Source: Armatimonadota bacterium (lineage in GTDB: Bacteria; Armatimonadota; UBA5829; DSUL01). From it: a DNA stretch of 64,000 nucleotides. The stretch is taken from assembly GCA_025998755.1 (NCBI GenBank), contig AP024674.1, positions 1,726,162 through 1,790,161 of the forward strand, written 5' to 3'. Positions 2,757 through 44,782 of this stretch are shown piece by piece. The notes beneath the pieces were generated by a model, which was not told the DNA's origin, made no database searches, and worked only from the letters and a program-made list of their open reading frames with translations. Numbering within the stretch: the first letter of the stretch is position 1; each line of letters starts with the position of its first letter. The translations under genes were made by a program, and so were the position numbers.

Positions 2757-5700
2757 TCGCTGCTCCCTGCCGGCGTGACGCCCGCCGGCTCCTGCAGATA
2801 CTCATTTACCGGAAGGCAGGAGGACGCATCTCCCCTGCGCCGGCTCTGCAAAGCGACCAGCAGCGCCCGCGCCGTATCCAGCGAAGTCAGGCACGGTATC
2901 TGATGCTGTACGGAAGACTTCCTGATGATGGCCGCCTCCTGCTCGCTGCGCTTGTCGTTGGAGACGGTGTTGATGAGCGCGTCCACCTTGCGCGAGCGCA
3001 CCAAGTCCAGCAGGTTGGGAGAACCCTCGCTGATCTTTCGGACGGTCAGCGCCTCGATGCCCCTGCTGCGCAGGAAGGCGCCGGTGCCGGCGGTGGCATA
3101 AATCCGGAATTCCAGCTCCTGGAAGCCCCGGGCGATCTCCAGAGCCTCTTCCTTGTCCTTGTCAGCGACAGTGATGATGATGCGCCCCCGATCTGGCACA
3201 TCCACCCCCGAGGCGACCATCGCCTTATACAGCGCTTGCTCGAACTGGAAGTCCACCCCCATGATCTCGCCGGTGGACTTCATCTCCGGGCCGAGGGCGA
3301 CATCCACCTCCGTGAGCTTGGCAAACGAGAAGACCGGCGCCTTCACCGCATACATCCCGCGGTCCGGCAGCAGGCCGCTGCCATAACCCTGCTCCGCCAG
3401 GGTCTGACCAAGCATGATGTTGGTGGCCACTTGCACCATCGGCACCCCCGTGATTTTGGACAGATAGGGCACCGTGCGGCTGGCGCGGGGGTTGACCTCC
3501 AGCACCTGGACCTGATCCCCGTCCAGCACGAACTGGATGTTCATCAGGCCGATGACGTTCAACTCCCTCGCGATGTTGACGGAATGGCGCACCACCTGCT
3601 CCACCACGGAATCATTGAGCGAAATAGGCGGGCACACGGCCATGGAGTCCCCCGAGTGGACGCCTGCGCGCTCAATGTGCTCCATGATCTGCGGGATGAG
3701 GCAGTCCCGGCCGTCGGCGATGACGTCCACCTCCAGCTCCTTGCCCACGATGTACTTGTCAATCAGGATGGGCGCGTCCGGCGAGACCGCCATCACGTAT
3801 TTCATATAGGCCAGAAGCTCCAGCCGGCTGCCGACGATCTCCATCGCCCGGCCTCCCAACACGTAGCTGGGACGCACCAGCACCGGGTAGCCGATCTCCT
3901 CCGCCACCTGCTCAGCTTCCTCGATGCTGGTGACCGCCCGGCCCGGCGGCTTGGGAACCGCCAGCCGGGACAGCATCTTCTCGAAGAGATCCCGGTCCTC
4001 GGCGGCGTCTATGCTCTCAAACGAGGATCCGAAGAGACGCACTCCGGCGCGGTGCAGCGGCCCAGCCAGATTGATGGCCGTCTGCCCGCCGAACTGAACG
4101 ATTACTCCTTCCGGCTGCTCCTCGTCCAGAACGTTCAGGACGTCCTCCGGGGTCAGCGGCTCGAAATACAGGCGGTCCGATGTGTCAAAGTCCGTGGAGA
4201 CGGTCTCCGGATTGTTGTTGATGATGATGGACTCGTACCCCGCCTCACGCAGCGCCCACACCGCGTGCACGCTGGAGTAATCGAACTCGATCCCCTGCCC
4301 GATTCGGATGGGACCGGATCCGATGACCACCGCCCGCTTGCGTTCTCCCGCGTGTTCTCTGATGGGCGCAGCTTCGTCTTCCGAATCGTAGGTTGAATAG
4401 AAATAGGGAGTCAGCGCCTCGAACTCCGCCGCGCACGTGTCCACCATCTTGTAAGTGGGCACGATCCCTGCGCGCTTGCGTGCGTCGCGGACAGCCATCT
4501 CGGAAAGGCCGGCGAAATCCGCGATGCTGCGGTCCAGGAAGCCCAGGCGCTTCAACTGCAGCACCAGATCGCGTCCCTGCCCGGCCGCGGCGGAATCCTC
4601 CCCCGCCACAAACGCTCGGATCTCCTCCTCACGCTCCCTTGCCTCCGATTCCGCATCCACGATCTTCTTGATGCTCCGGAGGAACCAGACGTCCACGCCC
4701 GAAAGAGCCGCGACCTCCTCCACCATCCATCCCCGCCGGAACGCTTCGGCGATGACGAACAGCCGCTCATCGTTGGGGGTCTTGATGCCCTCCTCGATCT
4801 CCATTGGACCCCACTTCTCAGCGTTCTTGAGGGTGAGCGAGTGCAGTCCGACTTCCAGCGACCGAACCGCCTTCATCAGGGCCCCTTCGAAGGTCCGGTC
4901 AATGGCCATGACCTCGCCGGTCGCCTTCATCTGGGTTCCGATGGTGCGGTCCGCCTGGGGGAACTTGTCGAACGGCCAGCGCGGCACTTTCACCACGCAG
5001 TAGTCCAGCGCAGGCTCGAAGCACGCGAGCGTCCTCTTGGTGACAGCGTTTGGGATCTCATCCAGAGTCAGGCCCAGAGCGATCTTGGAAGCCACGCGAG
5101 CGATGGGATACCCTGTGGCCTTCGACGCAAGCGCTGACGACCGACTGACGCGCGGATTCACCTCGATGACGTAATACTCGAAGCTTTCAGGATCCAGCGC
5201 AAGCTGAACATTACACCCGCCCTCGATGCCCAGCGCCCGAATGATCTTCAGGGAGGCCGTACGCAGGAGCTGATATTCCTTGTCCGAAAGAGTCTGGCTA
5301 GGAGCAACGACGATGGAGTCCCCGGTATGCACTCCCATCGGGTCCAGGTTCTCCATGTTGCAGACGGTGATGGCGTTGTCCGCACTGTCGCGCATAACCT
5401 CATACTCGATCTCCTTCCACCCCAGCAGAGACCGCTCCACCATCACCTGGCTACGCATTGAGAGGTTCAGACCACGCTGCCCGATCTCGATCAGCTCATC
5501 CGCGTTGTGGGCGATGCCGCCACCCGTGCCGCCCAGGGTGTAGGCGGGTCGGATGATGAGGGGAAAGATGCCCTTTTCCGCAATCTCGTGGAGCTGGGAG
5601 GCTTTGGTCACAATCCAGCTCTCCGGCACCGGCTCGCCAATGTCACGCATCAGCTGCCGGAACAGCTCGCGATCCTCGGCCTTTTGAATGGACTCCAGGG

Positions 5701-6066: not shown

Positions 6067-7149
<1,083 letters not shown>

Positions 7150-7189
7150 AGGATTTGCGCCCCTTTCACTGCGTCGAAGCTACAGCCTG

Positions 7190-8509
7190 TCACGCTCTCA
7201 CGCGGCCGCGTGGAGCCCGCACCAGATCGCCGTGGACGATCTGCCCGCCCACGATAGTGGCCACCGCCCTTCCCCGCAGCTCCCAGCCTGCAAACGGCGT
7301 ATTGCGGGCGCGGGACTGGAAGGCCTCCGGGTCCACGGTCCAGCGCTCATCCGGGTCTATGATGGTGATGTCCGCCGGACTCTGGACCGAAAGATGCCCG
7401 CCCGGAATCCCAAGGATGGAGGCGGGAGCGACTGTCATCTTGCGGATGGCGTCCGCCAGCCCGATGACTCCGGCGTGCACCAGCCGGGTTAGCACCAGGC
7501 CCAGCGCTGTTTCCAACCCCACCATCCCGAACGCCGCGGCCTGGAACTCGCACTCCTTCTCATGAGCGGCATGCGGGGCGTGGTCGGTGGCGATGGCGTC
7601 AATGGTGCCATCCGCAAGCCCCGCCCGCACCGCGTCCACGTCCTCGGCGGTGCGGACTGGAGGGCTGCACTTGACCATCGTGTCGTAGCCCAGCGCACTC
7701 TCATCCGTCAGGGTGAAATACTGAGGGCAGGTCTCGCAGGTGACGCTGACGCCACGCCTCTTGGCCTCCCGGACCAGCTCAATAGACCTGGCCGTCGAGA
7801 TGTGCAGGATGTGCAACCGGCAGCCCGTCAGTTCGGCCAGACGGATGTTGCGCGCCACCTGGATCTCCTCGGCTGCGCGAGGCATCCCCTTCAACCCCAT
7901 CAACGTCGAGACCAACCCCTCGTTCATCACGCCGCCGCGGGTCATCGTCTTGTCCTCGCAGTGCGTCAGCAGCGGGAGGTCGAACGTGGCGCAGTATTCC
8001 ATCACGCGGCGGGTCAACTCCGCCGACTGCAGGGGAAACGCGTCATCCGTCACCGCCACCGCGCCCGCCTCCTTCGCGTCGGCAATCTCGGACATCAGCT
8101 CGTTTTCGTTCCCCCGGGTCGCAGCCACAGTGGGCCATACGCGAACGGGGCTGGTCTCACGGGCCCGGCGGGCAACGAACTCCACCATCGCCCGGTTGTC
8201 CGTCGCCGGGTTCGTGTTCGGCATCGGGACCACCGCCGTAAATCCCCCCGCAGCCGCCGCCCGGCCGCCACTCTCGATGGTCTCCTTGTATTCGAACCCG
8301 GGCTCCCGCAGGTGGACATGCATATCAATGAGTCCCGGCGCGACGATCAGTCCGGAGGCGTCGAACACCACGTCCCCGTCCAGCGCCATCGCATCCGGCA
8401 GGTGCTGCCCGCACCAGGCGATGACGCCGTCCTCGACCAGCAGATCCCCCACGGTATCCAGGCCGTTGCGGGGGTCTATGATCCTCCCGCCCTTAATGAC
8501 CAGACGCAT
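7190..8509 (-). CDS. pyrC: Dihydroorotase, class I
   Basis: Closes carbamoyl aspartate to dihydroorotate at a binuclear zinc site. The 439-residue amidohydrolase has the first metal pair H64 and H66 in '[10 protein letters not shown]', further histidines H183 and H236, and the general-base aspartate D309 in 'ATDHAPH'. 'AVTDD' near 152-156 matches the aspartate-containing site of the class I enzymes. Its start lies 17 bases inside the end of pyrB, so translation is probably coupled. Class I dihydroorotases often associate with aspartate transcarbamoylase; that is family knowledge and is not visible here. Confidence 0.95.
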
Positions 8510-25888: not shown

Positions 25889-27076
25889 TCAACGGCGCGG
25901 CATGCCGGAGTGCCCCGTGGCTTCCTCCAGCAGCTTCCAGCAGTTCAGCTGCATCCGCGCAAGATGGTAGGGACCCTTCCAGCAGTTGCCCTTGCAACGG
26001 TTGGCAAGGGTCCCGTCCCGATGAAGATAGCCGAACCACTCCCCGTATGGCGGATCGGGGAAATGGGAATAAGTATATGCGTGTAAGCGTATATGCCAGT
26101 CCGCCCATCGCTTGTCGCCGGTCAGATGCCAGGCGAGCAGTGTGGCGTACAAAGCCTCCGTATGCGGCCACCAGAGCTTCATGTCCCACTGATATTCGGG
26201 GCGGGGAAGCCCTCTGAGATCCACGTAATACAGCAGCCCGCCGTATTCTTCATCCCAACCGCGCTCCAGCGACCATTCCAGCAAAGGAATGGCCTGCCTT
26301 GAAAGCTCCGCATCTCCCCGCAGGCGTCCCTCCTCCATCAGGAACCAGGCGCTCTCGATGGCATGACCGGGCAGGATGGTGCGCCCGTCCGGCGTGTCCA
26401 TGATGGAACCGTCCGGGGCCACCATCTCCAGAACGGCGCGAAGCTCCGGTTTGCAAAACTTCGAGAAGATGAGCTCAATGGATTCATCCGCCACTTCCCG
26501 GTAGATGGGGCGGTCATCCACTGCGCGAAGCGTCTGGGTGCAGCAGAGCAGGATCATCGGCATCGTGTGGCCGATGGAGGGCTGCACCTGAGGATTGACC
26601 TTCGGCTCCAGCAGTCCTGGCGTCCGGTGATAGCGCAGGAGCAGATCGAAGACCTCGGCAGCCCTGGCGCGGTAGCGGTCTTCGCCGCTTGCCTTCGCGT
26701 ATTCCGCAAGGCCCATCGAGGCGAACACCTCGGAGAAGACGTAGCGCCTTCTCCGGAGCGGGCGCCCATCGCGCGTCATCAGAAAGAACATCCGGCCGTC
26801 CGCATCGAAGCAGTACTTCAGCAGGAAATCCACGGCGTGGCGCGCCAGCTCCAGCCACTCCCGACGCTTCTCCACCCGGTTGTAGAGGGTGGAGTACACC
26901 CAGGCGATCCGCCCCTGCAGCCAGACAGGCTTCTCCGGACCGTAAAGGCTGCCGTCCCTGTCCAGAAAGGTCAGGAACCCACCATACTCATAGTCCGGAC
27001 TATGCCGGGACCAGAACGGAATGGTGTCTTGAAGCAGTCCGTCCCTGTAAATCGCAAGCAGGCGGGAGATATCCAC
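25889..27076 (-). CDS. N-acylglucosamine 2-epimerase (AGE) family protein
   Basis: A 395-residue alpha/alpha-barrel protein of the AGE/renin-binding protein/cellobiose 2-epimerase superfamily. Typical blocks are 'YGGFLTFLDRDG', 'WLQGRIAWVYSTLYN', 'PGHAIESAWFLMEE' with its catalytic-type histidine, 'YYVDLRG' and 'KLWWPHTEALYATLLA' with a second histidine. The family epimerises or isomerises sugars such as N-acetylglucosamine, mannose or cellobiose. The exact substrate cannot be read. The start is GTG at 27074-27076, with GGAGG about 12 bases upstream. Confidence 0.9.
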   Translation of the reverse strand: MDISRLLAIYRDGLLQDTIPFWSRHSPDYEYGGFLTFLDRDGSLYGPEKPVWLQGRIAWVYSTLYNRVEKRREWLELARHAVDFLLKYCFDADGRMFFLMTRDGRPLRRRRYVFSEVFASMGLAEYAKASGEDRYRARAAEVFDLLLRYHRTPGLLEPKVNPQVQPSIGHTMPMILLCCTQTLRAVDDRPIYREVADESIELIFSKFCKPELRAVLEMVAPDGSIMDTPDGRTILPGHAIESAWFLMEEGRLRGDAELSRQAIPLLEWSLERGWDEEYGGLLYYVDLRGLPRPEYQWDMKLWWPHTEALYATLLAWHLTGDKRWADWHIRLHAYTYSHFPDPPYGEWFGYLHRDGTLANRCKGNCWKGPYHLARMQLNCWKLLEEATGHSGMPRR

Positions 27077-27225
27077 GGCAACATAATCCTCCGTCCGGAC
27101 CCGGCAATTGCGAGCACTTTAGGCAAGGGGATGTCAGTAAATGCTACTGCGGCGCGCGTCTGACGTCCTTCGGAAGGCAGAGCTAGCGGGCGGTCCGTTG
27201 TCACCACGCGTCCGCTCACTGCGGT

Positions 27226-27316
27226 GGTTGAGCGGTCCGGCCAAGCCGGGCGAGTCGAAACCATACCGCCGCAGCGTCTGGTCTCGATACGCGCGCCAGC
27301 GGCGCGCCACTCGACC
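27226..27316. repeat. Pair of inverted REP-like palindromic units
   Basis: Unit 1 (27226-27262) runs from GGTTGAG to GAGTCGAAACC around a GC-rich core. Unit 2 (27280-27316) runs from GGTCTCGATAC through GCGCGCC-AGC-GGCGCGC to CTCGACC. Their ends are related to each other in inverse orientation, as in paired REP elements. From memory, similar GGTTGAG/GTCGAAACC palindromes are dispersed in many Actinobacteria. Unit 2 ends inside the first four bases of the direct repeat. Confidence 0.45.
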
Positions 27317-27526
27317 GGCGCAGGTGGGGCAAAGAGCGAACAAGTCACTGGCACAGTGCGTTCCCATCTCGCCAAGCCCCAAGCAGCAGGAGGCCGCCCG
27401 ACGGGGCGGCCTCCAGAGTCAGACCCGGGACGAAAGGGATGTCATTGCACGGAACCAGAAGCCCGCTCGCCTTCCTCAATCTGGCGACACAGATCGCGTG
27501 AGCGCGTCTGCAGGTCCCTCATCCGC
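27313..27526. repeat. Left copy of a 214-bp direct repeat
   Basis: This stretch matches 29910-30123 base for base without gaps at a constant offset of 2597, with about five substitutions. It contains a copy of the last 26-28 codons of the PDZ protein gene (minus strand) and a GC-rich hairpin (27389-27414). The gene copy is cut off at 27526 and has an in-frame stop just upstream, so it is not functional. Confidence 0.92.
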
Positions 27527-27610
27527 GGGGACGGCGCTTACGGCGGCACCGCAAACCACCGCACAGAAAGACAGAAGCGCCAGCCCACACAGCAGCATCT
27601 TTCGTGACAT
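27476..27610 (-). pseudogene. Truncated signal-peptide gene fused out of frame to repeated sequence
   Basis: A 44-codon frame starts with ATG at 27608-27610 behind AAGGA. It encodes a clear secretion or lipoprotein-like leader ('MLLCGLALLSFCAVVCG'), then about 'AVSAVPADE', and from 27526 onward reads the duplicated PDZ-gene tail in the wrong frame. The healthy ribosome-binding site and leader suggest the 5' end of a real exported protein whose body was lost when the repeat was joined to it. An alternative is a genuine tiny peptide. Confidence 0.5.
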
Positions 27611-27665
27611 AACAATCCTTCGCGTGGCTGCGCAAGTCAATCCCGCCAGTCGGCGACTCGGATTC

Positions 27666-28670
27666 CTAGACCGACAGCTTGACAAACCCCTTCAACACTT
27701 CGCCCCCGGCTACCAGGCGAAATGCCTCTTGCGCCTGGTCAAGTGTCCAGGTATGGGTAATGAACTTGCCGGGGTCTATCCAGCCGCGAATGATGAGGTC
27801 GCATACCCAGTCATAGCTTTCTTGTTCCCGGACATCCGACGGCACCCAGCCCTCGGGATAGCTAGTCCCAGTCGGAGGCACCCCATAGGCAGAGGCGAAT
27901 GCACCCGGTTTGAGCACGTCGAGCAGCCTGGCCGCAAGATCGGCATCGCCGGTGGCCTCGATCGCTCCGTCAGCCCCTCCGTTGGTAAGCTGTACGATTT
28001 GCTCGGTCCAGCCGCTTCGCGTAGTATCCACTACATGGTCTGCCCCCAGCTTGAGCGCAAGTTCAAGGCGCTCCTTTCGCCGGCCGAGGGTGATCACGCT
28101 TCCGCCTGCGAGCTTGATCCACAGGCCGAACGCAAGCCCGACGGCTCCTGTGCCCGCAACCACAACAGTCTTGCCTCGAACGTTCGGAAGACGGTTAAGC
28201 ACACTGGCCGTTTCCGCGAGGGTTATTGCAAGGGCCGCCTGAATGGGTTCAATCCCCTGAGGCACTACATTCTGACGAAGCACGTTGTAGTCGTCCATCA
28301 ACGAAGAATCGCCGTCCTCGGCCATCGCAAACCCGTCGCGCAGCACTCCGTATTCGGCAAATCCGCCGACGGCCAGGTTCAGTTCCGGCACGGAACCGGG
28401 AACGAATGCGCAGGGGCGAGTTACCCTGTCACCCACCTTGAACTTGCGCACTCTCGGGCCGACTTCGACCACCTCGCCGACGGACTCGTGTCCCAGCACG
28501 AACGGAAACGGCGGCGCCCAGAACATGGTGCCGTCGATAAGTTTGAGGTCAGTGCTATTGCATATCCCGCAGACCTCAATGCGAACCCTTGCGTCATACG
28601 GCCCCAGCCGGGGCTCGGGTATGTCGCGAACCTCAAGTTTCCCTTTTTGGGGCACAACTAGCGCTCTCAC
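27666..28670 (-). CDS. Zinc-type medium-chain alcohol dehydrogenase family protein
   Basis: A 334-residue MDR enzyme. The catalytic zinc site is present as C37 in 'CGICNSTD' and H61-E62 in 'GHES'. The four-cysteine structural zinc lobe is missing. The Rossmann motif is 'VVAGTGAVGLAFG'. Substrate is likely an alcohol or polyol but cannot be specified. The start is GTG at 28668-28670, overlapping the stop of the upstream MDR gene (GTGA), so the two enzymes are co-translated and may act in one pathway. Both lie between the direct repeats. Confidence 0.88.
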   Translation of the reverse strand: MRALVVPQKGKLEVRDIPEPRLGPYDARVRIEVCGICNSTDLKLIDGTMFWAPPFPFVLGHESVGEVVEVGPRVRKFKVGDRVTRPCAFVPGSVPELNLAVGGFAEYGVLRDGFAMAEDGDSSLMDDYNVLRQNVVPQGIEPIQAALAITLAETASVLNRLPNVRGKTVVVAGTGAVGLAFGLWIKLAGGSVITLGRRKERLELALKLGADHVVDTTRSGWTEQIVQLTNGGADGAIEATGDADLAARLLDVLKPGAFASAYGVPPTGTSYPEGWVPSDVREQESYDWVCDLIIRGWIDPGKFITHTWTLDQAQEAFRLVAGGEVLKGFVKLSV

Positions 28671-29653
28671 TCAGATTCCCTCCAATTGAAGACTGTGCCC
28701 AAGATCTGCGAGTCTCCAGCGGCAAATCTCGGATACATTTTCGGAGCTTCGTCGCAGGGGACTTCGTGGGTGATGAGACCATCAAAGTCCAACTTGCCGT
28801 AGCTCATAAGATCCAGGCACGTCCTGATCGCCTCCAGATCGTATCCGCAGGTGACGGCGATTGTGGGTCTTTTCAGGTGGGTCGTGTGGAAATCGAAACT
28901 AATCGGGTCGGGATACCAGCCCTGCAGCAGTATTTGCCCAAGAATTCCAAGCAGGTCAATACAAAGCGCGAACACGTCGGAGCGTCCGGTCGTCTCAATG
29001 ATGACGTCCGCTCCCTCCGGCTTGATTGAACGGACCAGCCGTGTCAGGTCCTCTTTTTGCGGATTTATTGCAATGTCCGCGCTGCAGCGTCTGCTCAGAT
29101 CCAATCGGGTTTCGCTCAAATCCGTTGCAATGACGGTAGCCCCCCTGAGTCTTGCAAGCTGCGCGCTGCCCTGACCAATAAGTCCCTGACCTATTACCAC
29201 AACCAGGTCGCCTATTCCGATTTCGAGCATTTTGATGCCCCGATAGCTCACAGCGCTTAAAGCAGAAAGCGCCGCCGCCTCGGAGCTAACCTTCTCAGGA
29301 ACGACCAGGGCAACATCGGGGGTCACGATCGCGCGGCTCACATGCGAACCCATCCAGGTAGGCGGAAACAGTTCCGGTAGCCTGCTCCTCTGGAAAAACA
29401 CTCGCTGACCCGGTTCAAACCCGCTGATATCCGCCCCTACTTCCTCTATAGTTCCTACGGCCTGATAGCCGGGGACGGTAGGGAATTGGATTTCCGGGCG
29501 CCGACCGGTAAAGGCCCACGTTTCGGTCCCCTGGCTGACTCCCGAGAACTCCGTGCGGACCAGCATCTCGCCGGGGCGAAGCTCAGGAAGGTCATAGTGC
29601 TGGATCTCGGCTCTGTTAGGCTCGGGAAACACGATCGCCTTGACTGGGGTCAC
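28667..29653 (-). CDS. Zinc-less medium-chain dehydrogenase/reductase
   Basis: A 328-residue MDR protein with 'FPTVPGYQAVGTIEEVG' where zinc enzymes have GHE, and no cysteine at the usual ligand position, so the catalytic zinc is probably absent. The nucleotide-binding motif is 'VVVIGQGLIGQGSAQLA'. It distantly resembles BchC-type or threonine-dehydrogenase-like reductases. The frame extends upstream, but GTG at 29651-29653 follows a GAGGTG site and gives the normal N terminus. It is coupled to the next MDR gene. Confidence 0.85.
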   Translation of the reverse strand: MTPVKAIVFPEPNRAEIQHYDLPELRPGEMLVRTEFSGVSQGTETWAFTGRRPEIQFPTVPGYQAVGTIEEVGADISGFEPGQRVFFQRSRLPELFPPTWMGSHVSRAIVTPDVALVVPEKVSSEAAALSALSAVSYRGIKMLEIGIGDLVVVIGQGLIGQGSAQLARLRGATVIATDLSETRLDLSRRCSADIAINPQKEDLTRLVRSIKPEGADVIIETTGRSDVFALCIDLLGILGQILLQGWYPDPISFDFHTTHLKRPTIAVTCGYDLEAIRTCLDLMSYGKLDFDGLITHEVPCDEAPKMYPRFAAGDSQILGTVFNWRESE

Positions 29654-29824
29654 GGTAACACACCTCACTTGCTTGATGAAATTCACATCGCCGAAATGGA
29701 ATCCGGCATCAGCGTAGCCATTCGTCCGCCCGCGCACACGCCACGAATAGCAACTTTAACAAAAAGCAGACTGAAAGTCGACCACGGGTCTGCCACTCTG
29801 CCAGTGTGGTGGACAACTGATGCG

Positions 29825-29865
29825 AAAATCGAGCAGGTGGGTCCGGCCACTTGCCCACCTGCTCG
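29825..29865 (-). terminator. Terminator-like hairpin between direct repeat and MDR genes
   Basis: A perfect 12-bp inverted repeat (29830-29841 and 29854-29865) is followed on the minus strand by ATTTTC. It would end transcripts coming from the PDZ gene before the MDR pair. It lies just outside the right repeat and is absent from the left one. Confidence 0.65.
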
Positions 29866-29909
29866 AAGCCGGGAACCAGACAGTGGCAAGAGCCGGCTCG
29901 GTTGCCCGA

Positions 29910-30123
29910 GACCGGCGCAGGTGGGGCAAAGAGCGAACAAGTCACTGGCACAGTGCGTTCCCATCTCGCCAAGCCCCAAGCAGTAGGAGGCCGCCCGACG
30001 GGGCGGCCTCCAGAGTCAAACCCGGGACGAAAGGGATGTCATTGCACGGAACCGGAAGCCCGCTCGCCTTCCTCAATCTGGCGGCGCAGATCGCGTGAGC
30101 GCGTCTGCAGGTCCCTCATCCGC
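29910..30123. repeat. Right copy of the 214-bp direct repeat, including the 3' end of the PDZ gene
   Basis: This is the intact context: bases 30039-30123 are the last codons of the large PDZ protein gene, and 29910-30038 are its downstream region. That region includes an 11-bp perfect stem-loop at 29986-30011 (loop GACG). It is matched at 27313-27526. Confidence 0.92.
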
Positions 30124-33100
30124 TCGGACAGCTTTCGGACAGCCTCCGCGAACTGCTCGTTCGTGCGTTCCAGGGCGGTAATATTCTTCCAGGTATGGTA
30201 GAGCTCTGCGAGATTGTAGACGTTATCCCAGAACAGGCTGCCGAACTTCCACGCTGCCCCGGGAACCGTCTTGTCCAGATTCAGGATGCCCACGATCTGG
30301 CCAATCCCGTCCCGGATGGTTTCCAGAGTCTCTCCCAGCGACTGATTCTCGCGCTCCATCAGCGAACTTGCGTCGCGGAGCGCCTTGGACTCCTTCAGGC
30401 GCTGGATCAGCGTCACCATGTGCCGGTACTTCTCCAGCAGCTCCTGCGGAGGATCCGGGAGCTTCTTCGCCAGATCGTAGATGGTCTCGTAGCGGTCCGA
30501 GAGCCCGGAGATCCCGAAGTCCATCGCCAGATCGGCGGCCATTTCCACACTGCGGGTGAACGCCTCATCAGAGGAGCGCTCCCACTCCTCGAACAGCTTG
30601 GCATTGTCCTGTATGGCCGAGGTCAACCGCAGCAGCGCCTGCCGGGTGGCTTCGATCTGCCTTTCCGTCTCATTGAGTTCCTGTTTCCACAGGGCGACCC
30701 GCTCCCTCCATTCTTCCGGCGTGGACGGCGAAGGGCGGGATCCGCCGGACCCGGCTCCCGGGCCAGGCGTGGCGGAGCCCGGGGCGCCCACGGGTGGCCG
30801 GAGCGGGGCCACGCCCGCGCTCAGGCTGGACAAGGTAACTGCCACCGAAGACGCCTGGCGCGGGTCGGAGCGAAGCACTCCCGCCGCCGCCAGCAGCTTC
30901 TGAAACTTCTGCACTGCCTCATCCCGCTTTGCCTCGGACTCCTTCCGGATCCGCTCCGCCTCATCCGGCGAGGACGAAGCTACCGCCTGCGCCCGGGCCA
31001 GCTCACCTTCGGCCTGCGTCAGCTCGTCCAGAACCCGGTGGGTCTGCTCGATCAGCGAGGCGCTGGCCATCCCGTAAGAGGCGACGATTTGCGGCTCGGG
31101 CGCGATCTCCAGCGACGGCAAGGCTGTCAGGTCCAGCTCGCCTGTCATCGCTTTGGCGCTGCGCTCGGCCAGATCGCGGGCAGCTTCAAGATCTCCCGCC
31201 ACTGCCTCCTTCAACGCTGTCTCTGCGAAGGCCGCGCTGGCGGCCAACTGGCGCATCACGTCCGAGACAACGGCGGCGTCGGTCTGCACCCTGACCCAGG
31301 AATCTCCCGACCGGCGCGAGAAATCCGTACCGCCTTCCTGTATGAACGTCAGCGACCCGCCGTCCCCGGTCACGTGGAACACCGCGCTCCAGAACCCGTG
31401 GGTCTCCCGCGGCAGAGAGGCTCTGCGGCCAGTCGCCCCGCGAACGGTGACGGTGCGGCCCGACTGGCGGATGGAGCGCGCAAGCGCGATGACCTTGGCG
31501 GCCTCAGACAGGCTGTGCAGCTCCGGGCAGACACGCGCATAAGAAGAGTAGTTCTCGGTAAGGAACCGGCCATACCCGGCGGCGGCATCCTTCAGGAATC
31601 CGGAGAGACGGCCATCATCCGGCCCGTAGATGCGCCCCAGCCAGCCGTCCACCCGGACGCTCGACTGACCGAACTCCACCACGGAACCGTCCTGCGAGAC
31701 CCTCAGCCGCACTTCCGCCGGAATAAGCGTGCAACCCATCATCGCCCCGCCGGATGCGGGCACGCTGTAGCCAGAAGCATCCTCACGCTTCCAGAGGAAC
31801 TCCTGCGACGTGAGGTGGCCCGGGAACTGCTCCCTGAGATCCGGGAAGGAGCTGATGCTCTTGAGCGCATAATCCGCGCGGAAGAGGATTTCGCCCAAAA
31901 GGGAGTCGGAAGGAACGTCCTTGAAGACCAGTTCCACCCGGGGAGAGGCGAGGCCGTAAATCCGGGACAGAATCTCCGGCCCCAGAACGAGGCCATTCAG
32001 CATGGCGGCCCCGTAGCGGCTAGAGATGGACTCCGAAATCAGGCTGCCCATGTAGTCAATGAGGTCGTCCGCGGACCGCTGACCGGCCCGGATGCCGGAA
32101 ATGATCTCCTGCATGCGCGGCTCGGACGCGCCGAAGCTCCGGCAGACCTCCGAAATGGCCAGAATGATCCCCTCGTTGCGCGTGGTCTGCGGATCCAGCT
32201 CCCGCGAAAGCAGATCCAGATACTGCTCCCGCAGTCCCAGCTCATCGCACATGCGGAAGAGCAGCTCCTCGGGCGTTCCCCCGGCAGACAGCACCCCCAG
32301 AGCCCTTCCCGCACGGGTGTAGCCCAGGCCGAGAAGCATCTTGCTGGCAAGGCTCATGACCTCGGTATCGGGAATGTTCAGCTTGCCGGTCGCAGCGTCA
32401 TGCAACCTCTTGAGCTCGCTGCCACTGATGCCCATCACCCGCGCCACGTTGTCGAAGAGACGCTTTCTGTCAGCCTGCAGAGACGGATCGTTCAGCAGCA
32501 GATCGGCCACCTTGCGCGTCCACTGGTCGGCGTAGGACGGGGAAGAATGCATCTTCCGAATGTCCTCGCCCACCTTTAGAGCCGCCTGCTGGAACTCCTG
32601 CTCCGACTGCGGAGTGGGCTCCAAAGAAAAGGAAGGATAAGGACACTCCAGGGCCTCTTTCAGGAGGTCGGCGTAGGGAATGGGCCCGGTGGCCACCTGT
32701 GGGTCATGGCGGCCGATGAAGGTTACCTCGCCAGTGGCGGGATCAATAAGAGCGTACCGGAGGACATTGATGTCCAGCGGCCCGCTTCGCTGCGGCGGCG
32801 CTGGACGCTGTGGCGCGCCGCCCTCACCGGATGCAGGAACATCGAAGCGCGATGGACGGGCGACAGGACGGACGGTAAAGGTCAGTTTCTGGCCCTGCCG
32901 CAAGACCTCCAGCGGATAAGATTCTCCCACCTGAAGAGCCAAGGCTGCCCGGACGAACTGCTCGGATCCCGTTACAGGCGTCCCTGCAAGTGAGACGATC
33001 AGATCCCCCGCTCTGATGCCTGCCTCCTCGCCCGGCGCTCCCGGCATCACCGCCACAACCAGCGCACCTCTCCCGCCTTCCGGCGCGTCCTTAATTTGAA

Positions 33101-33338
33101 GGCCAAGGAAGGCACCTGCCCGGTTCTGCAAGGCCTCGCCTCGACGCCTCACTGGCTCCGCTGAGGACAAGTCCCCGGCGCGAGCCATTCCGGCGACTTG
33201 GGCCTCTCTCGACGCCCGACGAGACTGGGTTCGGGACTCAGCCTGTTCCACGCCTGGATCGAACCGCGAGCTGCGGTCGCCCGCTGCAGGCGGCGCGCCC
33301 CCGAAGATGACGGCAAGGGCAAGGAAGAAAACGACCAT
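30039..33338 (-). CDS. Large exported PDZ-domain protein with C-terminal coiled coils
   Basis: A 1099-residue protein. The signal peptide or membrane anchor is about 1-20. A PDZ domain at about 75-159 ('GAFLGLQIKD', 'GAPGEEAGIRAGDLIVSLAG') is followed by a long mixed central region I do not recognise. That region includes a beta-rich stretch with 'DGSVVEFGQSSVRVDGW' and 'GDGGSLTFIQEGG'. A proline/glycine linker comes next, and alpha-helical coiled coils fill the last 250 residues ('ERQIEATRQALLRL', 'ERMRDLQTRSRDLRRQIEE'). No protease catalytic domain is visible. A longer start at 33416 is possible; neither start has a strong ribosome site. Its 3' end is duplicated at 27313-27526. Confidence 0.75.
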   Translation of the reverse strand: MVVFFLALAVIFGGAPPAAGDRSSRFDPGVEQAESRTQSRRASREAQVAGMARAGDLSSAEPVRRRGEALQNRAGAFLGLQIKDAPEGGRGALVVAVMPGAPGEEAGIRAGDLIVSLAGTPVTGSEQFVRAALALQVGESYPLEVLRQGQKLTFTVRPVARPSRFDVPASGEGGAPQRPAPPQRSGPLDINVLRYALIDPATGEVTFIGRHDPQVATGPIPYADLLKEALECPYPSFSLEPTPQSEQEFQQAALKVGEDIRKMHSSPSYADQWTRKVADLLLNDPSLQADRKRLFDNVARVMGISGSELKRLHDAATGKLNIPDTEVMSLASKMLLGLGYTRAGRALGVLSAGGTPEELLFRMCDELGLREQYLDLLSRELDPQTTRNEGIILAISEVCRSFGASEPRMQEIISGIRAGQRSADDLIDYMGSLISESISSRYGAAMLNGLVLGPEILSRIYGLASPRVELVFKDVPSDSLLGEILFRADYALKSISSFPDLREQFPGHLTSQEFLWKREDASGYSVPASGGAMMGCTLIPAEVRLRVSQDGSVVEFGQSSVRVDGWLGRIYGPDDGRLSGFLKDAAAGYGRFLTENYSSYARVCPELHSLSEAAKVIALARSIRQSGRTVTVRGATGRRASLPRETHGFWSAVFHVTGDGGSLTFIQEGGTDFSRRSGDSWVRVQTDAAVVSDVMRQLAASAAFAETALKEAVAGDLEAARDLAERSAKAMTGELDLTALPSLEIAPEPQIVASYGMASASLIEQTHRVLDELTQAEGELARAQAVASSSPDEAERIRKESEAKRDEAVQKFQKLLAAAGVLRSDPRQASSVAVTLSSLSAGVAPLRPPVGAPGSATPGPGAGSGGSRPSPSTPEEWRERVALWKQELNETERQIEATRQALLRLTSAIQDNAKLFEEWERSSDEAFTRSVEMAADLAMDFGISGLSDRYETIYDLAKKLPDPPQELLEKYRHMVTLIQRLKESKALRDASSLMERENQSLGETLETIRDGIGQIVGILNLDKTVPGAAWKFGSLFWDNVYNLAELYHTWKNITALERTNEQFAEAVRKLSERMRDLQTRSRDLRRQIEEGERASGSVQ

Positions 33339-34348
<1,010 letters not shown>

Positions 34349-42299: not shown

Positions 42300-43490
42300 A
42301 TGGGACAGCTCTACGCATTCAGAAGAGATGATGACGAGCCCGCTCCGCAGACGGCGGGAAGCGGACCGTTCAATATGGATCCTCTGGGCAGCGACACGGA
42401 CAACTACCGGGCCGCGGGGCGGGACACGGAGACCATCCACGTGGATGAGATCCTGCGGGAGGGAGTCGGGCGGGGCGCATCGGACGTGCACCTGACCGTG
42501 GGACTGCCTCCGTGCGTGCGCGTGGACGGACGCCTCTGCCGAATGGACTTCACCCCCCTGGAAGCCCATCAGATCCAGAGGATGATCTACGACATCTTGA
42601 CGAAAGACCAGATCCTCTGGCTGGAGAAAAGCCGCGAGCTGGATTTTTCGTACGGCCTGTCTGGCGTGGGGCGCTTCCGCGTGAATGTATACCGCCAGCG
42701 CGGATCGCTGGGGGCGGCCTTCCGCGTGGTGCCGAGCGACATCCCGACGATGGAGCAGCTCCGCCTGCCTCCCATCTGCAAGGAGCTGACCGGGCGTGGA
42801 AGCGGGCTCATCCTGGTGACCGGTCCCACAGGGGCCGGCAAGTCCACCACCATCGCCTCGATGATTGATTACATCAACACGCACCGGCCGGTGCACATCG
42901 TCACCATCGAGGATCCCATCGAGTATCTACACCGGCACAAGGTGGGGATGGTGAACCAGCGGGAGCTGAACGCGGACACCGATTCGTTCGAGAACGCGCT
43001 TCGGGCGGTGCTGCGCGAGGACCCGGACGTCATTCTGGTGGGCGAGATGCGCGATCTGGAGACCATCAGCGCAGCGCTGACGCTGGCCGAGACCGGGCAT
43101 CTGGTTTTCGGAACGCTGCACACGCGCAGTGCCGCGCAGACCATAGACCGCATCATCGACGTTTTCCCCCCACATCAGCAGGCGCAGATCCGGGTGCAGC
43201 TTGCGAACACCCTGGAGGCAGTCATCTCTCAGTTGCTCCTGCCGATGAACGGGGGGGGCCGCGTGGCGGCGCACGAAATCCTGGTGGCCACATCCGCAGT
43301 GCGAAACCTTATCCGGGAGGGGAAGAGCTACCAGATCGGCACCTTGCTGGAGACCAGCCAGGCCCAGGGCATGCAGCCGATGGATCGCGCACTGGTGGAC
43401 CTCCATCTGCAGGGACTGGTGGGTCTGGAGGAAGCGCGGATGCGCGCCGTGGATCCGGAGAACTTCGACCGGTACCTGAGAGGGGGATGA
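42300..43490 (+). CDS. pilT: Type IV pilus retraction ATPase PilT (first copy)
   Basis: A 396-residue retraction motor with 'RGASDVHLTVGLPPCVRVDG', Walker A 'GPTGAGKST', Asp and His boxes ('VTIEDPIEYLH', 'ETGHLVFGTLHT') and the PilT-specific C-terminal AIRNLIRE-like motif ('AVRNLIREGK'). An N-terminal extension of about 45 residues precedes the usual start. It is one of two adjacent PilT paralogues that are strongly similar over their full length. One may be the processive motor and the other a PilU-type helper; which is which cannot be told. Confidence 0.93.
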   Translation: MGQLYAFRRDDDEPAPQTAGSGPFNMDPLGSDTDNYRAAGRDTETIHVDEILREGVGRGASDVHLTVGLPPCVRVDGRLCRMDFTPLEAHQIQRMIYDILTKDQILWLEKSRELDFSYGLSGVGRFRVNVYRQRGSLGAAFRVVPSDIPTMEQLRLPPICKELTGRGSGLILVTGPTGAGKSTTIASMIDYINTHRPVHIVTIEDPIEYLHRHKVGMVNQRELNADTDSFENALRAVLREDPDVILVGEMRDLETISAALTLAETGHLVFGTLHTRSAAQTIDRIIDVFPPHQQAQIRVQLANTLEAVISQLLLPMNGGGRVAAHEILVATSAVRNLIREGKSYQIGTLLETSQAQGMQPMDRALVDLHLQGLVGLEEARMRAVDPENFDRYLRGG

Positions 43491-43588: not shown

Positions 43589-44782
43589 ATGGCACAAGCA
43601 TTCGCCTGGGACGACATGCCAGAAAGCGACGTGAAGATTCAGTTTCAGAAGCAGGCCAACGGCACCCACCTGTCCGGGCAGAGCCGAAAGGACGGGCGCG
43701 AGGTCCGCTTGCGCTCCCTCGAAGGGGTGCATGTGGATGAGATCCTGGAGGAGGCTCTGCTCCGTGGGGCCTCGGATGTGCACATCCACTGCGGACTGCC
43801 GCCCGTATACCGGGTGGACGGCAGCCTGGTCCGCAGCGACTATGAGCCGCTGGACGCCCGCACCATTCAGAGGCTGGTCTATGACATCCTGACGGGCGAC
43901 CAGATTGGCAGACTGGAGGCAGAGCGCGAGCTGGACCTCTCTTATTCGGTGGGAGACTGGTGCCGCTTCAGGGTGAACGTGTTCCGTCAGAAAGGCAGCT
44001 ACCAGGCGGCGTTCCGCGTGGTTCCGAGCCAGATCCCGGACATGGACGAGCTGCGGCTGCCTCCTGTCCTACGGAAGCTCACCCAGACCACCAGCGGGCT
44101 CATCATGGTGACGGGACCGACCGGCTCCGGCAAGTCTACCACCATCGCCGCGATGATAGACCACATCAACCAGAACCGCTCGGTCCACATCATCACGCTG
44201 GAGGATCCCATCGAGTATCTTCACCGGGACAAGCGGGCCATGGTGACCCAGCGCGAGCTGCACTCCGACACGGACTCCTTCCACAACGCGCTGCGCGCCA
44301 TCCTGCGGGAAGACCCGGACGTCATCCTGGTGGGCGAGATGCGGGACCTTGAGACCATCAGCGCGGCTCTCACCCTGGCGGAGACTGGGCACCTGGTGTT
44401 CGCGACCCTGCACACACGCAACGCCGCTCAGACGGTGGACCGCATCGTGGACGTATTTCCTCCGCATCAGCAGGAGCAGATCCGCGTGCAGCTCGCCAAC
44501 ACCCTGGAGGCAGTCATCTCGCAACTGCTGCTACCGATGCGTGAGGGCGGGCGAGTGGTGGCCGTGGAAGTTCTGGTGGCGACGTCCGGCATCCGCAACC
44601 TGATCCGCGAGGGCAAGACCCACCAGATCGGCACCGCCATCGAGACGGGAACCAACCTGGGAATGCAGCCGATGGACCGCTCGCTCGCTGAGCTGGCCAC
44701 TCTGGACCTGATTTCGCTGCAGCAGGCCAGGCTGCACGCGACCGACCCAGAGAATCTTGATCGCTATCTTGGAGAACGGTGA
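43589..44782 (+). CDS. Type IV pilus retraction ATPase PilT/PilU-like (second copy)
   Basis: A 397-residue paralogue of the preceding gene with the same motifs: 'RGASDVHIHCGLPPVYRVDG', Walker A 'GPTGSGKST', 'ITLEDPIEYLHRDKRAMVTQRE', 'VGEMRDLETIS' and 'GIRNLIREGK'. The catalytic glutamate, arginine and histidine boxes are intact, so both copies should hydrolyse ATP. The stop overlaps the pilC start as TGATG. The 98-base gap from the first copy holds a GC-rich stem. Confidence 0.92.
   Translation: MAQAFAWDDMPESDVKIQFQKQANGTHLSGQSRKDGREVRLRSLEGVHVDEILEEALLRGASDVHIHCGLPPVYRVDGSLVRSDYEPLDARTIQRLVYDILTGDQIGRLEAERELDLSYSVGDWCRFRVNVFRQKGSYQAAFRVVPSQIPDMDELRLPPVLRKLTQTTSGLIMVTGPTGSGKSTTIAAMIDHINQNRSVHIITLEDPIEYLHRDKRAMVTQRELHSDTDSFHNALRAILREDPDVILVGEMRDLETISAALTLAETGHLVFATLHTRNAAQTVDRIVDVFPPHQQEQIRVQLANTLEAVISQLLLPMREGGRVVAVEVLVATSGIRNLIREGKTHQIGTAIETGTNLGMQPMDRSLAELATLDLISLQQARLHATDPENLDRYLGER

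Follow-up and report, generated by a model that had tools for sequence, protein, structure and literature searches.

As reported for an Escherichia coli lacZ conjugation assay, insertions that duplicate part of their target predominated, accounting for 56 of 60 clones examined by PCR; the duplications measured 109–950 bp in 14 sequenced cases and were attributed to a circle with shortened homology that recombined through a single crossover (PMC3240628). The locus described here resembles these single-crossover, or homology-facilitated, insertions in that foreign-looking DNA lies between direct copies of the target, and its 214-bp duplication falls within that range; in contrast, the assay used a plasmid with built-in homology (PMC3240628), whereas here the copies have had time for five substitutions and no donor was identified. 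As in insertions of single-crossover or illegitimate origin, we found flanking target copies of 0.1–1 kb, no mobility genes in the insert, and a single locus. Integrative elements at gene 3' ends provide a second comparison, and elements of this kind that lack an integrase (CIMEs) are known. The locus is similar to them in its insertion site, its duplicated gene end, and the intact gene that remains, with flanking direct repeats of which one completes a gene 3' end. It differs in that the insert has no integrase, no att core is recognisable, and the repeat extends 129 bp beyond the gene and reaches into a REP-like element; integrase and excision genes, which a CIME can do without, are absent inside 27527–29909. 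Finally, REP and BIME families with a RAYT share with this genome a palindrome present in dozens of copies, whereas the Y1 transposase was not found in this genome. Our literature search returned no paper on REP elements together with template switching and none on REP elements together with Armatimonadetes.

In this study, we analyzed a 64,000-nucleotide stretch (the window) of an Armatimonadota genome. Between a gene for a PDZ-domain protein and a REP-like element, a foreign piece of 2,383 bp, holding a two-gene operon for MDR dehydrogenases and the truncated beginning of a third gene, was probably inserted once, duplicating a 214-bp target and most likely proceeding without a dedicated enzyme. 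The locus is a well-preserved insertion scar, new in detail and ordinary in kind: a clean trace of genes acquired with no mobile element, in a phylum that has received little study.

The direct repeats occupy 27313–27526 (left copy) and 29910–30123 (right copy), neither assigned to a strand. They match without gaps over 214 bp at an offset of 2597, as the original prediction had stated, and the roughly five substitutions given there are exactly five: 27387 (C in the left copy, T in the right), 27422 (G/A), 27457 (A/G), 27487 (A/G), and 27489 (A/G). A search of the whole 3,289,812-bp single-contig chromosome with the repeat recovered the first copy at E = 3.6e-113 and the second at 2.4e-102 and no third, which settles the question of further genomic copies in favor of two. 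At the left edge of the repeat the similarity is lost abruptly, while at the right edge it fades across about 9 bp; for this reason a separate repeat search reported 223 nt at 96%.

The right copy comprises the terminal 85 bp of the PDZ gene (30039–33506, minus strand, 1155 aa) and 129 bp downstream. The C-terminus of the protein aligns with five relatives and is native, so that the copy is, as predicted, the natural end of the gene with its downstream hairpin; this hairpin, within the repeat, is strong (z −4.7, folded on the left copy). Of the five substitutions, the coding part has three and the non-coding part two, leaving 82 of 85 and 127 of 129 sites unchanged, respectively. Both parts are thus about equally kept, which fits a recent plain copy. 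Each of the five differences would fit a change from GC to AT, which would have happened three times in the left copy (coding part) and twice in the right copy (non-coding part). In particular, two of the substitutions in the left coding fragment lie in one codon and turn arginine into cysteine, at a position occupied by K, R, R, H, and Q in the five relatives. The earlier description of the left copy as a dead fragment therefore holds for its coding part and fails for the remainder, since the copy also ends a REP-like element in an apparently native place.

The extent of the repeat bears on a decayed integrative element. An integrase would have placed such an element at the 3' end of the PDZ gene, where an end carried by the element restored the gene, and the integrase would later have been lost or would have acted in trans, in the manner of a CIME flanked by attL and attR. 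The topology would be the same, with the displaced gene end and the old downstream DNA at the far side and the restored end at the gene. However, the repeat continues 129 bp beyond the stop codon, is equally kept there, and ends inside the REP-like element, none of which is needed to restore a gene. There is no mobility gene among the open reading frames of 27527–29909, and neither the repeat nor the cargo has another copy elsewhere in the genome. We regard this origin as distinctly unlikely. A transposon was also considered and rejected: there is no transposase, no pair of inverted repeats at the ends of the insert, and a single copy, and a duplication of 214 bp does not agree with the short duplication a transposon leaves, as the original prediction had noted.

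The REP-like element adjoining the left copy forms a double palindrome about 105 bp long (27219–27323, no strand assigned), and its last 11 bp (27313–27323) are the first 11 bp of the left copy. Its core occurs at 37 sites in this genome at no more than one mismatch, compared with 4 for a reversed control pattern, and the double-palindrome form was seen in the REP sites that we listed side by side. The exact core was found 26 times in this genome, 7 times in its genus mate, and not at all in 59 other genomes searched. The Y1 transposase (RAYT, PF01797) had no match in this genome and none in the genus mate, itself 69% complete, and gave one weak match each in two further relatives (G002 and G003). 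Hence, the family looks like an orphan, with no Y1 transposase found in this genome or in the genus mate. A further REP-like copy lies in the window at about 20921, and elsewhere on the chromosome four copies cluster within about 2.2 kb (L135; G000:C1 2006412–2008635).

To distinguish old from new junctions, we used the broken tail of this dispersed repeat, which makes the distinction possible without a sister strain. Other REP copies in this genome finish with CTCGACC(A/G)NCGTAG or a sequence near it. The copy at the locus ends in CTC-GACCGGCGCAG, and the left repeat copy begins at its GACC. A matrix was built from 22 distinct 11-base tails found elsewhere in the genome (whose own scores are 8.3–17.1); against it, the tail GACCGGCGCAG reaches 11.9 bits, a value attained by 79 of 854,434 11-mers, true REP tails included. 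Outside the window 33 tails were recognised, with sites lacking a recognisable tail left uncounted. Moreover, both ends of the element at the locus are changed alike, reading CTGCG..CGCAG in place of the CTACG..CGTAG of most copies. The left repeat copy therefore completes the element, while the right copy has the same 11-bp tail with nothing of the element before it. On the simplest reading, drawn from this tail, the outer junctions (27312/27313 and 30123/30124) would be the old ones and the inner junctions (27526/27527 and 29909/29910) the new ones. The left copy would thus have retained the old downstream context with a severed PDZ gene end, and the right copy, joined to the intact gene, would start with a REP tail that has lost its REP element. 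The empty site would have read epimerase gene, REP-like element, one repeat copy, and PDZ gene.

The same junctions were weighed against the idea that the MDR genes are old neighbors of the PDZ gene and that the left copy is the remnant of a larger duplication followed by a deletion. A hairpin located mostly in the right end of the insert is extended by the opening bases of the right copy, which thus have a possible context on the insert side as well, as might be the case with a native junction. Elsewhere in the genome, near a REP element, gene 3' ends also form a larger repeat (L141). However, this history would make it a coincidence, of about 1 in 10,000 per site, that the left copy completes the end of a REP element. 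We weighed the REP tail, though short, as the stronger sign of polarity. The composition of the insert and the neighborhoods of PDZ relatives, given below, also argue against old neighbors, and we consider this history very improbable.

The inserted segment (27527–29909, no strand assigned) measures 2,383 bp of unique sequence, or 2,597 bp counting one repeat copy, and no second copy was found in this genome. Its GC content is 0.587, compared with 0.635 ± 0.017 for the host, and its tetranucleotide distance is 0.316, compared with 0.202 ± 0.029; by either measure, 1 of 319 host windows reaches so extreme a value. These windows overlap and were drawn from REP neighborhoods and the window itself, so that they are no random sample. 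A weaker sign is GC3, which is mildly low: among 214 host open reading frames, 39 are as low or lower for MDR1 and 22 for MDR2. The proposed check of the GC content of 27527–29909, made here against these host windows, thus shows atypical DNA, and by this composition the MDR pair looks foreign. The tetranucleotide distances of the insert to the loci of six relatives are 0.325–0.472; none of these is below the 0.316 to the host, and the comparison thus points to no donor. Atypical composition is also what an assembly or binning error could leave, an account that we consider extremely improbable, given that the genome is a single contig, 98.95% complete, and that the copies differ at five sites, unlike those of a looped assembly. 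A strong hairpin without a T run is present at 29829–29866, within the insert upstream of MDR2. An Rfam scan of 26900–30400 gave two matches, both located at the hairpin and far below the gathering score, and a promoter and terminator scan gave hits no commoner than in shuffled sequence.

Two coupled MDR genes had been predicted between the repeats, and both are present on the minus strand. MDR1, a zinc-type medium-chain dehydrogenase, lies at 27666–28670 (PF08240, 1.5e-17; PF00107, 4.5e-17). MDR2, an MDR dehydrogenase, has an open reading frame at 28667–29737, with a real start probably near 29653, where the alignment of relatives begins. Next to MDR1 is the start of a third gene (27527–27610, minus strand), 28 codons that resemble a signal peptide, with AAGGAT upstream of an ATG at 27610. 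It is severed at 27527 by the left repeat and continues out of frame into a 44-aa chimaera. Apart from the genome's own copy, these 28 residues had no convincing match in the 40 loci compared. The open reading frames of 27527–29909 hold just these two MDR genes and the gene start and no mobility gene, which agrees with the earlier statement that no integrase or transposase is present.

At 1e-40, MDR2 had no match in any of the 27 other genomes of the class; at 1e-40 or better it was found in 9 of 61 genomes searched and, at 1e-90, in 5 of 291 genomes of the phylum, this genome included in both counts. Relatives of the cargo are at most 63% identical. For MDR2, the identity is 52% in a genome of the same phylum (G052) and 63% in a named Armatimonadetes MAG, and the MDR2 relatives in loci L094 (63%) and L096 (59%) showed no separate MDR1 beside them. 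Both genes were found in an uncultured Armatimonadetes MAG (L095; MDR2 61% and MDR1 63% identical) and in a Capsulimonadaceae MAG (L097; 51% and 57%), where they overlap in the same order as in the window. Similar MDR neighbors also occur in Phycisphaerales and Verrucomicrobiota loci. Judged from gene order, the MDR2–MDR1 pair is evidently a real operon elsewhere. The operon of Armatimonadota, Planctomycetota, and Verrucomicrobiota matches the window in order and in its 4-bp overlap; in contrast, the pair in the window lies between direct repeats and has a cut gene after it.

The neighborhoods of relatives were compared on both sides of the locus. The left flanking host gene encodes an N-acylglucosamine 2-epimerase family protein (25889–27076, minus strand; PF07221, E 2.5e-52). 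Its counterpart in a same-family genome (G003) is 77% identical and has none of the other tested genes of the window nearby. In three other genomes of the same genus or family, two of them just 69% and 80% complete, the PDZ gene gave only PDZ-domain matches. Relatives of the PDZ gene are located in other neighborhoods, and in the stretches around them, from seven genomes, there is no match to MDR1 or MDR2. This absence counts against the MDR genes as old neighbors of the PDZ gene, as does the atypical composition of the insert.

The original prediction had offered two readings: integration at the 3' end of a gene, with duplication of that end, or a segmental duplication. The first is supported by the REP polarity and the atypical filling. 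A plain segmental duplication was set aside as the main reading, because only 214 bp are duplicated and the filling is single copy. For insertion with target duplication, the duplicated target would run from the 85-bp end of the PDZ gene through the hairpin to 11 bp of the REP-like element, and two routes may be drawn. In one, a circle carrying the cargo beside a short piece of the target would enter by a single crossover; in the other, break repair with a template switch would copy foreign DNA and rejoin 214 bp back. We lean toward the single crossover as a guess, although it needs a donor with a piece of this target and none was found. Against insertion by either route, no empty site was seen in any genome. 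A PilM gene adjoins the locus and a ComEC domain was found in the genome, so DNA uptake is possible.

Another way to the same pattern is a staggered break, in which two nicks 214 bp apart were joined to a foreign fragment and the gaps filled, giving a very long target-site duplication. This would yield exactly the repeats observed, and the base of the REP hairpin, where a nick is plausible, coincides with one edge (CTC/GACC). However, 214 bp is very long for a stagger. Moreover, no Ku and no Y1 transposase were found in the genome, which leaves neither Ku end joining nor a resident REP transposase to nick the DNA. We consider the staggered break quite improbable. As agents in their own right, a REP transposase and Ku end joining were each rejected, given that neither Y1 transposase nor Ku was found in this genome.

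Insertion with duplication of the target may instead have been caused by the REP palindrome itself. Synthesis or repair coming from the PDZ gene would have stalled at the hairpin base (CTC/GACC, 11 bp into the element), jumped to foreign DNA coming in, and rejoined the target 214 bp back. Such a template switch at the hairpin would explain why a new junction lies at its base. We put this forward as a speculative and unlikely cause. If true, a bacterium in which no REP transposase or Ku was detected would acquire genes through REP-like palindromes acting as gates, and if REP hairpins recur as sites of such insertions, the idea becomes testable.

Furthermore, we searched 30 stretches around other REP sites of this genome (about 0.36 Mb) for internal repeats of at least 70 bp, and 10 of them contain a pair. 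In L129, L135, L137, and L145 the pairs are at REP positions, judged by coordinates; pairs also occur in L126, L128, L130, L144, and L150. The L141 pair (3379–4733 and 6098–7455) spans 1365 bp at 93% identity and is the shared 3' part of neighboring genes, with a REP element between them and differing 5' parts. From their translations, we read the genes as amidase-like, and the pair looks like gene conversion or a partial duplication of a gene end. Within the window itself, two directly repeated stretches of about 950 bp (42438–43388 and 43730–44680), 74% identical, are probably tandem paralogous genes.
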